Assembly (NCBI GenBank): GCA_016214035.1
Contig: JACRPF010000004.1
Location: 62,001 to 126,000 of the forward strand
DNA: 64,000 nt
From: Spirochaetota bacterium
GTDB lineage: Bacteria > Spirochaetota > Brachyspiria > Brachyspirales > JACRPF01
Direction of reading: 5' to 3'
Shown here: positions 18,926 to 59,899 of the stretch, piece after piece
How positions within the stretch are numbered: the stretch's first letter is position 1
Layout of the letters: each line of letters opens with the position of its first letter
Made by a program: the position numbers and the translations under genes
Notes under the pieces: model-generated
What the model saw: only the letters and a program-made list of their open reading frames with translations
Database searches by the model: none
What the model was told of the DNA's origin: nothing

Positions 18926-19999
18926 GTGCAGACACTACGCTTACTACTCGCGAAAATAGCCTACTATATCGAATATGCTGCGGTAAAGCTCCGTTTCAGC
19001 ATCCGGTATCAGCGCTACCGTCTCGAACGCCGTAATATACGCATCCCGTCATTCTCATTCCTCAAACGTCCGGTTGTCATACTGACGCTCCTTATCATCA
19101 CCACGGTGCTGCTCTTCGCGTTCTTCCCGCATCCGCAATCTGCGGCCGCGGACGCCGAGACACTGCAGAACGCGGAGGATAATTTTCAGACACAGCAGGG
19201 TAACAAGGTGAACACCGCCGACATCATCGATATGGGCGTTGACACGTCGTTGAAGCCGGCCGCGCATGCGACAGGCGTTGTCTTCACCGATTATACGGTG
19301 CAGAAAGGCGACAGCATCTGGAGCATAGCCAAAGACCATGCGCTCGCGCTGGACACGATCATCGGCGTCAATAACATCAAAGATCTCAATGCGCTGACTA
19401 TCGGCAGCGTCATCAAACTTCCGAATATGAACGGGATAAACTACACCGTACGGGCGAACGATACTCTCTCGCATATATCGCTCTTCAGCGGATCGCCTAT
19501 TGAAAAGATAAAAGAGATGAACGGCATTACCGATGCATCCATCGCCGCCGGCCGCGTGCTGTTCCTTCCGGACGGCAAACTCGATGCGGTTGAACGCAAC
19601 CGTCTGTTCGGCATCGACTTCAATAAACCTATTTACGGCCGTCTGACATCGCGCTACGGCCTCAGAAAACATCCGTTCCTCGGTTACCGTATGTTCCACA
19701 CCGGGGTTGATATCGGTTATAACAACGGCGGAAGTGTCCGCGCAGTGCAGGCGGGAACCGTTGGTTTTGCCGGCGAGAACGGCGGCTACGGCAATTATGT
19801 AAGCCTGCAGCACAAGAACGGCTTTACCACCGCGTACGGCCATCTTGCGTCGATAAGCGTTGCACCCGGGGCATACGTCAAGAAGGGCGATGTCATCGGA
19901 GTCGTGGGTTCAACCGGCATATCCACCGGCCCGCATCTGCATTTCGAAGTGCTCTACCGCGGCAAATATGTGAATCCGCTTTCATACGTGAGATACTGA
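18926..19999 (+). CDS. LysM-M23 (LytM-type) peptidoglycan endopeptidase
   Basis: 357 aa from a GTG start with a weak AAGG upstream. A cytoplasmic basic stretch is followed by one membrane anchor (~48-70, VVILTLLIITTVLLFAFF). Two LysM modules (~126-172 and ~174-218; YTVQKGDSIWSIAKDHAL and YTVRANDTLSHISLF) bind peptidoglycan. The C-terminal M23 metallopeptidase has FHTGVDIG (zinc His and Asp), AYGHLASI and GPHLHFEV. Zinc ligands are complete, so it should be active rather than an EnvC-like activator. Role: cell-wall remodelling in the periplasm. It ends in SYVRY, a normal M23 end. Confidence 0.92.
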   Translation: MQTLRLLLAKIAYYIEYAAVKLRFSIRYQRYRLERRNIRIPSFSFLKRPVVILTLLIITTVLLFAFFPHPQSAAADAETLQNAEDNFQTQQGNKVNTADIIDMGVDTSLKPAAHATGVVFTDYTVQKGDSIWSIAKDHALALDTIIGVNNIKDLNALTIGSVIKLPNMNGINYTVRANDTLSHISLFSGSPIEKIKEMNGITDASIAAGRVLFLPDGKLDAVERNRLFGIDFNKPIYGRLTSRYGLRKHPFLGYRMFHTGVDIGYNNGGSVRAVQAGTVGFAGENGGYGNYVSLQHKNGFTTAYGHLASISVAPGAYVKKGDVIGVVGSTGISTGPHLHFEVLYRGKYVNPLSYVRY

Positions 20000-20035
20000 A
20001 CAACAGTCATCGTGCACCGCATCTTATTGTCCTTG

Positions 20036-20307
20036 TACACAGATACCGAGCATCAATACACAGCAACTATGACTACATACACAGATAGTGAGCCGTTGTA
20101 CACAGAGACAACGCCCAGATACACAAATACAGAGCCTTTGACACAGTGATAATGAATTACTACCCGAACGCAGATGCCATGTACACGGCTACAATGCCCA
20201 TGTACACAGATACCGGGCATCAATACACGGCTACAATGGCTGAATACACAGATCCTGAGCCGTTATACACAAAGATAATGCCTTGATACACAGATACAAC
20301 ACTCACG
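20036..20307. repeat. 13-unit 21-bp tandem repeat array
   Basis: Thirteen units begin TACACA or a close variant at 20036, 20057, 20078, 20099, 20120, 20141 (one base short), 20161, 20182, 20203, 20224, 20245, 20266 and 20287. Odd units mostly read TACACAGATACnGAGCCnTTn. Even units carry ATG at columns 13-15 (TACACGGCTACAATGCCC). The true register is therefore a 42-bp dimer. Units 1 and 9 differ by one base and units 3 and 11 by three, so there is also a 168-bp higher-order copy. The array lies between the 3' ends of the M23 and hppA genes. Confidence 0.9.
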
Positions 20308-20331: not shown

Positions 20332-20364
20332 AAAAAAAAAGAGGCGGGCACGATGCCCGCCTCT
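20332..20364 (-). terminator. Intrinsic terminator of hppA
   Basis: Read on the minus strand, AGAGGCGGGCA, loop TCG and TGCCCGCCTCT form an 11-pair stem (20340-20364) followed by a run of T's (20332-20340). It lies 26 bases after the hppA stop. Confidence 0.93.
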
Positions 20365-20389: not shown

Positions 20390-22855
20390 TTATTTCACCG
20401 CTTTCTTGTCGCCGATGCGCATTCCGTAGAATGAGCGATAGACAAAAATCAGCGCGATGACGAAGAACACAACACCGACGATCGGAGCGATCGTCCTGAA
20501 TTTCTCGGAAATCGCAATTTCCATGGCGAGAAGCCCGAACAGTGTGGTGAACTTGATGATGGGATTCATGGCAACAGACGACGTATCCTTGAACGGATCG
20601 CCGACCGTATCACCCACAACCGTAGCCGCGTGAAGCGGAGTGCCTTTTTCCTTCAGATCGACTTCAACGATCTTCTTGGCATTGTCCCAGCAGCCGCCCG
20701 CATTCGCCATGAACACGGCCTGGAAGAGGCCGAACACGGCGATGGCGATAAGGTAGCTGATGAAGAACGAAACCGGCGAGCTTGCCTTGATGACATCGGC
20801 GGGAAGACCCGTCTTCACCAGGAGCTCGGTGAGACCCGTCGGGGCCGAGAAGAACGCGAATGCAAGCGCGAACGAGAATATCGCGATGAAAATATTGAAC
20901 ATACCCTTCTGGGCATACTGTGTACAGATCTTCACCACTTCTTTCGATGCATTGATATCCGCTTTCTTTGCCGCTTTCGGATCGAGCTTGATATGCAGCT
21001 TTATGTATTCAACCGCGCGATACGCGCCGGTGGAAACCGCCTGTATCGATGCGCCCGAGAACCAGTAGATGACCGCGCCGCCGGCGATGAAGCCGAGGAT
21101 CGAATACGGGTTGAGCACATTGAGGATGGATTCGGGCTCGATGCCGAGCGTGCTCTTGATGAGAAGTATAAGCGAGAAGATCATCGTCGTAGCGCCGACA
21201 ACCGCGGTGCCGATGAGCACCGGTTTTGCCGTGGCTTTGAAGGTGTTCCCCGCGCCGTCATTGGTCTCAAGCAGGAGCTTGGCGTTCTCGAAATCCGGCT
21301 TGAAGCCGAAATCGCGCTCAATTTCCTTGCTCGCATTCTTGTTCTCTTCGATGAGCGAAAGTTCGTATACGGACTGTGCGTTATCGGTAACCGGGCCGTA
21401 GCTGTCGACCGCGATGGTGACAGGTCCCATGCCGAGGAAGCCGAATGCGACAAGACCGAACGCGAAGATCGCCGGATAGATCATGTGCGCGGAAAGACCG
21501 TTCATGCTCAGGAAGTACGAAACCGCCATGAGCGCCGCGATGACGAGACCGATCCAGAACGCGCTGAAATTACCGGCAACAAGACCGGACAGGACGGTAA
21601 GCGATGCGCCGCCTTCGCGGGACGCAGTCACCACTTCCTGTGTGTGGCGCGATTTGGTGCTGGTGAAAACCTTCACGAATTCCGGTATAATCGCAGCCGC
21701 AAGCGTACCGCAGCTGATGATGCCCGCAAGCCATAACCAGAGGTTATTGCCGAGCGAAGAAAGCTGCCAGTAGCTCACCGCAAACGTCATTACCATGGAG
21801 AGGATCGAGGTGATCCATATGAGATTCGTCAGGGGCTGTTCGAAATCGATTTCGGCCTTCTTTGCGTAGACGATCTTATTGATGAGTCCGTTCACCCAAT
21901 ACGCGATGATGCTGGTTGCGATCATCAGGAAACGCATGGTGAATATCCATGTAAGAAGCGTTACCTGTATCTTGGGATCGTTGACTGCGAGAAGTATGAA
22001 GCTGATAAGCGCGACACCCGTTACGCCGTAGGTTTCAAAACCGTCGGCAGTGGGTCCAACGCTGTCGCCGGCATTGTCACCGGTACAGTCCGCGATGACA
22101 CCGGGATTGCGGGGATCATCTTCTTTAATTTTGAATACGATCTTCATGAGGTCGGAACCGACGTCGGCGATCTTCGTGAAGATACCGCCGGCTACGCGGA
22201 GCGCCGATGCGCCGAGCGATTCGCCGATAGCGAAACCGATGAAGCATGAGCCGGCGATATCGCCGGGCATGAAGAGAAGGATGCCGAGCATCATGATGAG
22301 CTCAACGCTGACGAGGAGCACCCCGATGGACATGCCCGCCTGAAGCGGTATGTTCATGACCATGATGGGATTTCGCTGCAGCGACGCGAATGCCGTGCGG
22401 GCGTTGGCGAGCGTGTTCATGCGGATGCCGAACCAGGCAACGCCGTACGAACCGAGGATGCCGATGACCGAGAAGAGCAGGATCACTGCAACTTTGCCGA
22501 CCGGCATAGCCTGAAGGTAGCCGAAATAGAACGCGATACATGCTGCGATAAACAGTTCAAGAATGATGAGGAATTTCCCCTGCTGTAAGAGATATGCCTT
22601 ACAGGTTTCGAAAATGAGATTGCCGATCTCGAGCATCGACGAGTGCACCTTGAGCTTTTTGACGCGCAGGTACTCGTAGACACCGAAAAGAAGACCGAGC
22701 ACGCAAATGCCGATCCCCACGACGAGCAGCCAGAAACTTGCGGGACTGGCGGCTAAAAAGTTCGGTACCACGAGGGACGCTTCGCCTCCGCCGTGATGCT
22801 GTACGGCGTTGGTTACGGCGGCCGCTGCGTGAGCGACGACGTTCGTTTGAGCCAT
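20390..22855 (-). CDS. hppA: Membrane-bound proton/sodium-pumping pyrophosphatase
   Basis: 821 aa integral membrane enzyme that couples pyrophosphate hydrolysis to ion export. The start is the ATG at 22855 (MAQTNVV), with AGGAG seven bases upstream; the open frame runs 11 codons further without support. The catalytic Asp-rich loops are present: DDPRNPGVIADCTGDNAGDS and, near the C-terminus, NAGGCWDNAKKIVE with KGTPLHAATVVGDTVGDPFKD. The segment GNTFKATAK has Lys where potassium-independent enzymes have it (GNTTKA). The protein is longer than the common 650-750 residues, partly from an extended N-terminus and an insertion around SLIEENKNASKEIERDFG. Ion specificity is inferred only. Confidence 0.93.
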   Translation of the reverse strand: MAQTNVVAHAAAAVTNAVQHHGGGEASLVVPNFLAASPASFWLLVVGIGICVLGLLFGVYEYLRVKKLKVHSSMLEIGNLIFETCKAYLLQQGKFLIILELFIAACIAFYFGYLQAMPVGKVAVILLFSVIGILGSYGVAWFGIRMNTLANARTAFASLQRNPIMVMNIPLQAGMSIGVLLVSVELIMMLGILLFMPGDIAGSCFIGFAIGESLGASALRVAGGIFTKIADVGSDLMKIVFKIKEDDPRNPGVIADCTGDNAGDSVGPTADGFETYGVTGVALISFILLAVNDPKIQVTLLTWIFTMRFLMIATSIIAYWVNGLINKIVYAKKAEIDFEQPLTNLIWITSILSMVMTFAVSYWQLSSLGNNLWLWLAGIISCGTLAAAIIPEFVKVFTSTKSRHTQEVVTASREGGASLTVLSGLVAGNFSAFWIGLVIAALMAVSYFLSMNGLSAHMIYPAIFAFGLVAFGFLGMGPVTIAVDSYGPVTDNAQSVYELSLIEENKNASKEIERDFGFKPDFENAKLLLETNDGAGNTFKATAKPVLIGTAVVGATTMIFSLILLIKSTLGIEPESILNVLNPYSILGFIAGGAVIYWFSGASIQAVSTGAYRAVEYIKLHIKLDPKAAKKADINASKEVVKICTQYAQKGMFNIFIAIFSFALAFAFFSAPTGLTELLVKTGLPADVIKASSPVSFFISYLIAIAVFGLFQAVFMANAGGCWDNAKKIVEVDLKEKGTPLHAATVVGDTVGDPFKDTSSVAMNPIIKFTTLFGLLAMEIAISEKFRTIAPIVGVVFFVIALIFVYRSFYGMRIGDKKAVK

Positions 22856-22977
22856 TGAAGAACTCCTGATGTAATAATAAATTTGCAATCATTGGCACAT
22901 CGCGCCGCCGGATACGCCGTTGAGGACATACGTCTTAGGACGGAACTGCGCACGGGATGAACTATAATTGTCGCGCC

Positions 22978-24217: not shown

Positions 24218-24285
24218 TCGGAAAAATTAACACGCGCTATGTTCGGGAAGAGATGTCTTTCTTCGCACCGTGCGCGACTCGCTAT

Positions 24286-24417
24286 GCGCCATCCATGGCG
24301 CCGCTCGGTACGGCCTCCGTACCTTCAACTCAGCTGTCTGTCCATGGACAGATTCGTCGCATCCGCTGGTCGGCTTAGCGGCATCCGTGCCGCCGCCTCC
24401 CTTGGCCATCCATGGCC
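24286..24417. repeat. Palindrome island B (GGA/TCC-centred hairpins)
   Basis: Five inverted repeats lie within 132 bases: GCGCCATCCATGGCGC (24286-24301), GGTACGG-CCT-CCGTACC (24307-24323), CTGTCCATGGACAG (24338-24351), GGCA-TCCG-TGCC (24380-24391) and GGCCATCCATGGCC (24404-24417). Stems differ, but the TCC or TCCATGG centre recurs, as in islands A and C. No coding frame is supported. Confidence 0.7.
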
Positions 24418-24500
24418 ACGCATCGTGCCGCTTGCTAATAATATTATATAAATCTGGATACTATCTTCTCTTTCTTGTTGTATAGTATGCACGGCGCTCA

Positions 24501-24573
24501 GAAAGACATTTCTCCCCTTCACTTCACGCGCTCAGTGATATATAAATATTGCTGTGTGGTCAGGAACGTTGTG
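24501..24573. repeat. 75-bp direct repeat, copy 2
   Basis: Begins GAAAGACATTTC and contains TTCACTTCACGCGCTCAGTG and ends in ACGTTGTG. Partner of the copy at 24143-24217, same orientation. Confidence 0.8.
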
Positions 24574-59606: not shown

Positions 59607-59658
59607 GGAAATCGCGGGCTAATAACACTCTATTCTGAAACGTTGACAGCATCCACTA

Positions 59659-59735
59659 CGCGCATGGATGCGCGACAATACCGCAGATTTAGTCTTGCCC
59701 GCGATCGCTAGCGCAAGCGATGCTGGAGGCATCGC
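59659..59735. repeat. Palindrome island C (GGA/TCC-centred hairpins)
   Basis: CGCGCATGGATGCGCG (59659-59674) and GCGATGC-TGGAG-GCATCGC (59717-59735) lie in the gap between murI and the GNAT gene, with the self-complementary GCGATCGC (59701-59708) between them. The centres again contain GGA, as in islands A and B. Confidence 0.65.
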
Positions 59736-59899
59736 GAGAGCGACAATAGCTAGTTTCATATCAACACCCATGTAAAACCCAATCGTAGCAATTAGGTCAA
59801 ATGATTGAGTAACATCTCACACTATATGCTGAACACTGTATTCCATACATGCCGGTTCGTCCGCACTGCCGGTATTATGCATTTCTGCGCCTTAATAGC
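59736..59899. other. Gap before the GNAT gene end
   Basis: Moderately AT-rich sequence with stops in all frames; I see no gene, promoter or terminator that I can defend. Confidence 0.4.

Follow-up and report, generated by a model that had tools for sequence, protein, structure and literature searches.

The window, by which we mean the whole 64-kb stretch of DNA analyzed here, contains a tandem array (A1). The description that fits its unit sequence best is that of an orphan belonging to the type found on contig C19 of the same genome, within a gene-linked class of 21-bp arrays. This class exists and is linked to two protein families: arrays of unrelated sequence adjoin most members of both family 1 (about 120 aa) and family 2 (typified by a 262-aa protein), in several spirochaete families. 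A1 displays the features of the class, namely a non-coding tandem repeat with a 20/21-bp step, a short conserved core with a variable remainder, and an alternating two-unit register.

A1 had been described in an earlier note as thirteen 21-bp units, one of them 20 bp long, and both self-identity and unit reading confirmed this description (Table 1). On the minus strand each unit reads GTGTAY followed by 15 variable bases, the plus-strand equivalent of the core being TACAC. Self-identity at lags 21, 42, and 167 is 0.48, 0.54, and 0.78, respectively, compared with a shuffle mean of 0.27 and a maximum of 0.36–0.37 (2000 shuffles); the next best period anywhere in the window scores 0.43. Two unit types alternate, reading after the first 9 bases roughly GGCATTGTAGCC versus GGCTCGGTATCT, and the proposed distinction between odd and even units proved significant when the unit order was shuffled (p = 0.002); it is found, in phase, in the C19 array too. 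The nested periods of 21, 42, and 168 bp claimed in the same note were borne out for the first two, while the third is in fact 167 bp, because unit 5 has lost a base; this long period corresponds to a duplication spanning about eight units. TRF does not detect A1, even at a score of 30.

Table 1. Positions of A1, its neighbors, and related features (window coordinates unless a contig or locus is named).
Feature	Position	Strand	Remarks
Array A1	20036..20307	-	13 units × 21 bp, unit 5 = 20 bp; self-identity and unit reading
Duplication copy 1	20028..20131		83% identical over 104 nt to 20195–20298
Duplication copy 2	20195..20298		167 bp spacing from copy 1
LysM + M23 peptidase gene	18926..19999	+	Upstream; A1 begins 36 nt past its stop
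Intrinsic terminator of convergent gene	20340..20364	-	Predicted; precedes the array
Convergent gene	20390..22888	-	3′ end faces A1
C19 array	C19:260042-260299		Divergent array of the A1 type
262-aa family-2 gene	L048:682-1467		
Family B sites, source genome	C1:40.8k, 133.6k, 277.6k; C12:133.3k, 180.3k; C14:208.3k; C18:402.9k; C4:100.2k		

A1 occupies a tail-to-tail gap, and no promoter-like site was found there, in agreement with its original placement between two gene 3′ ends and away from promoters. From reading its translation alone, we take the convergent gene to encode a membrane-bound pyrophosphatase (hppA-type). The predicted terminator of this gene precedes A1, which therefore lies outside the convergent gene's transcript. 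GC skew is constant across the stretch containing A1, and hence there is no origin or terminus signal there. We compared the source genome (5.2 Mb, 22 contigs, about 1.8 Mb of it sampled in stretches) with one genome of the same family, G001, in which both flanking genes are present at other places, neither with an array beside it, and where the homologue of the LysM/M23 gene has its stop at the corresponding codon and is followed by no array. Absence from relatives had been named beforehand as grounds for rejecting the array; the A1 locus is indeed empty in this one genome, and arrays of the same class occur elsewhere in it. The empty locus therefore shows only that this copy is lineage-specific. 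Elsewhere in the window, short dispersed repeats at 24233–24532 and 59655–59748, unrelated to A1, share 80–94% identity with several places on contig C10.

Searching the genome for further copies, as the earlier note had advised, was productive: with translated A1 as the query, we recovered a second, divergent array of the same type on contig C19. It comprises 12 complete units with the same core and lies directly 3′ of the gene for the 262-aa helical protein, within the distance of about 1.5 kb that characterizes linked loci. The match of A1 to the C19 unit scores 0.81 (null maximum 0.60), the alternation in the C19 array is in phase with that of A1 (p < 2e-4), and a search with a profile turned up no third array of this unit type. 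We rejected the notion that A1 is unique. It had been raised by exact pattern searches without a match in other spirochaete genomes, and those searches used a single unit sequence. Neither a gene nor a relic of family 1 or family 2 is present in the whole 64-kb window, let alone within 1.5 kb of A1, so A1 is assigned to the class on the strength of how closely its units resemble those of the C19 array. Orphan arrays usually match the unit of one linked array.

The decay of A1 is uneven, the core having been kept and the other columns having changed. GTGTA is present in 22 of the 23 full units of A1 and the C19 array, and the mean pairwise identity of the remaining columns is 40%. Simulation of uniform decay yielded at most 2 near-invariant columns versus 5 observed, the simulated unit sets being on the whole somewhat more divergent than the real units. 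Within the A1 duplication there are 16 differences in 96 positions and 0 in 25 core positions (P = 0.008), a small and one-sided test that we count as support rather than proof.

Family 1 was noticed from five arrays that lie beside similar short open frames. Its profile matches 19 sites in the source genome, a number of which are fragments, and 6 sites in G001, and the family also occurs in further families among the 393 phylum genomes and 195 genomes of one family that were searched. The 262-aa protein of family 2 has two relatives in the source genome and a full-length one in genome G174, and a 21-bp array lies 3′ of all four members. With the six loci that suggested the linkage removed to avoid circularity, a 20/21-bp array lies within about 1.5 kb at 36 of 42 family loci (p = 1e-34), compared with 8 of 300 random source-genome windows at period 21. 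Some of the 42 loci are close relatives, so this p value overstates their independence; the linkage holds without it. Spirochaete genomes other than the source genome and G001 contribute 23 of the loci, 20 of them positive. No period other than 20/21 wins as best, and two of the six loci lacking an array are near contig ends. The array may sit on either side of the gene, and a minority of family-1 loci (L398, L399, L402, L413, and L414) show a 20-bp step. A public example is the Treponema saccharophilum plasmid pTS2, whose array lies 5′ of WP_002705223.1. On this plasmid, the array and gene lie between two almost identical direct repeats of the sequence with which the following gene begins (ATGGGAGACGCATTGG; L407 2691–2712 and 3400–3420), as if a unit had been inserted or the region duplicated. 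Searches of viral contigs and plasmids returned no relatives of family 2, and Riemerella plasmids encode a distant family-1 relative among tightly packed genes that leave no room for an array.

Both families are predicted by AlphaFold2 to form helical bundles (mean pLDDT 90.5 for family 1 and 82.7, with a very thin alignment, for family 2). Foldseek gave no PDB match below 1e-3; Pfam, NCBIfam, and PHROGs yielded nothing convincing; no known DNA-binding fold emerged from the structure or family searches; PADLOC gave weak matches only, as expected of coiled coils; and BLASTP revealed no relation between the 128-aa and 262-aa families. The pairing of protein family and array is undescribed in the databases and open-access papers searched, which form part of the whole literature. 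Array similarity and protein similarity are correlated (Mantel r = 0.57, p = 0.0005): loci with proteins >80% identical have array units in common, and units are unrelated already at 58–66% protein identity. The latter is odd for sequence-specific recognition: either specificity depends on a small number of residues, or sequence is not closely read by the protein.

An unbiased scan for conserved columns, covering periods 12–40 in 1.24 Mb not chosen for arrays, found period 21 in 11 of 20 cases, making it the commonest period; some of these cases are coding heptads of chemoreceptor-like proteins and others are intergenic. Many intergenic period-21 arrays with unrelated units occur in the source genome, and TRF, run on contig ends picked regardless of sequence, also returned period-21 arrays with unrelated units. 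Dyad symmetry within units across arrays, which are not all independent, gives a Stouffer z of 7.2 and is missing from many arrays, A1 among them. Per-unit hairpins were rejected as a general feature, failing in many arrays. Among other repeats, family B (GTGTACGTTCAACATATTCCG type) consists of dispersed intergenic elements with a degenerate 21-bp register and copies 67–100% alike; some adjoin family-1 genes or fragments, and some lie near a sigma-factor gene. Contig C16 carries at 288.6–289.8 kb (L094 6627–7799) a 372-bp AT-rich tandem repeat with GCGGCGGCG and CGCGAGTACGCGCGCG stretches, and L297 23–899 and L094 6627–7799 are overlapping views of one end region. A Treponema MAG contains a 21-bp array of about 20–25 units whose core is nearly palindromic (TACGGAACTTCCGTA; L045 5763–6209), near which a simple motif look saw no family-1 or family-2 gene. 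This array is probably not a homologue, because a 21-bp step was a requirement of the pattern used to find it.

We give about an even chance to the reading that A1 is the orphan DNA half of a two-part element composed of a gene for a small all-helical protein and an intergenic array of about 6–18 units with a 21-bp step. In such an element, the linked protein, or a partner, would bind the array at its core and build a nucleoprotein array; with one core every two helical turns, the bound molecules would all lie on the same side of the DNA. For A1, the binding protein would be the product of the gene next to the C19 array, acting in trans. Candidate purposes of the putative complex are autoregulation, partition-like anchoring, and upkeep of a selfish element. 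The earlier note had suggested a protein-binding array facing one side of the DNA, a recombination or segregation site, or a coding remnant. The first is the best supported of the three, given the kept core, the exact period, and the same-period arrays beside a protein family, from which we infer the binding itself. More tentatively, and at somewhat less than an even chance, the class as a whole may represent an undescribed mobile spirochaete element, made of a helical protein and an array whose 21-bp step is fixed and whose sequence is free, in which the protein or the array-building process measures helical turns, instead of depending on one particular sequence, and orphans are served in trans. 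The two-part reading, if right, would establish a recurring protein-plus-array element across spirochaetes, provide the first context for two unannotated families, and raise the question of how arrays of unrelated sequence come to have a single, exact step of 21 bp. At every linked locus, protein and candidate site lie next to each other and offer a test case.

A1 is non-coding and is not a decayed heptapeptide gene. The contrary proposal, that it is the remnant of a gene for heptapeptide repeats of the YTDTEPL or VYKGIVA type, draws on 21 bp being seven codons and on an open frame that spans the second array (86 aa) and several A1 units. Against it, the differences within the A1 duplication are spread flatly over codon positions (10/9/8), as they are in the dispersed family B arrays, in contrast to 61/10/16 for the sigma-factor gene beside a family B array. 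Furthermore, the GTG codon of the core is never synonymously changed in the units of A1 and the C19 array, the open frame differs from array to array, no family hit was obtained, and A1 itself carries stops and a frameshift. This proposal is already close to refuted and is the least probable of those considered. An RNA array, in which the repeats would be transcribed as small structured units and bound by protein, as in type III toxin-antitoxin systems, also appears improbable. It could account for a protein gene with adjacent tandem repeats, for the hairpins with 4-nt loops in several Treponema arrays 5′ of the gene (e.g., TTCCTAA-AGGC-TTAGGAA), where it is still a candidate reading, and for the minus-strand RNA of A1 folding somewhat better than shuffles (z = −2.5). 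Yet plus-strand folding is ordinary (z = −1.1), A1 lacks a promoter-like site, and most 3′ arrays lie beyond the gene's predicted terminator, a strong rho-independent one separating gene and 3′ array at 8 of 12 loci and a weak match doing so at a ninth (L423). Because a terminator usually intervenes, the array probably acts as DNA, which is also favored because a step of two B-DNA turns is fixed across unrelated sequences; such an exact 20/21-nt step is unexpected of RNA.

The strongest competitor, unlikely on balance, is a selfish cassette in which gene and array move together, slippage or unequal crossing-over grows the array, the cell derives no function, and orphans are leftover fragments. 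The multicopy and lineage-specific distribution, the dispersal of one unit type to many intergenic sites at 67–100% identity, the fast replacement of arrays relative to proteins, and the tolerance of insertions in tail-to-tail gaps all agree with this explanation, and slippage yields higher-order repeats such as those of 42, 63, 84, and 167 bp. It leaves unexplained, however, a near-invariant core with 60% change elsewhere and the same 21-bp step in unrelated sequences. An ordinary minisatellite in neutral decay, unrelated to any gene, would suit the degeneracy of A1, its lack of a partner gene beside it, and its lack of a congener for comparison, but it is at odds with the uneven conservation of columns, with the existence of a second array that matches A1, and with the strong linkage of the class to the protein families, and we regard it as even less probable than an RNA array.

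The two-part element that we favor resembles several known systems in part. Neither the A1 neighbors (an M23 peptidase and a pyrophosphatase-type gene) nor the linked proteins include a ParMRC family. Like the class described here, parC/ParR, plasmid partition sites, and iterons have helically phased direct repeats beside a gene for a small DNA-binding protein, with arrays that vary between systems (PMC5016525); ParR, however, is a ribbon-helix-helix protein with the motor partner ParM and is found on plasmids (PMC5016525), whereas here a helical bundle occurs in many copies on chromosomal contigs. The type III toxin-antitoxin system ToxIN likewise combines a protein gene and adjacent tandem repeats with a terminator between them, but there the repeats, located upstream of the gene, give rise to transcripts that bind an endoribonuclease (PMC8860590), whereas the arrays here often lie 3′ beyond the terminator. 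No toxin or RNase family, including any ToxN/CptN/TenpN-type endoribonuclease, was found among the linked proteins, and Rfam returned no hit. Archaeal Borg elements similarly contain many independently formed tandem arrays per genome, intergenic or genic, but their units are perfect copies in a wide range of lengths, only 14–38% of the intergenic ones being divisible by three (PMC9879509), in contrast to the fixed 20–21-bp step here and to units that are degenerate around a core. As an analogy only, since its proteins are unrelated and it was found by a pattern requiring core and step, an array in an IMG/VR contig (L212 550–900) shares six core bases and the step: five direct copies of GTGTACC at a 21-bp step are followed by inverted GGTACAC copies, directly after two short, probably DNA-binding genes that look ribbon-helix-helix.
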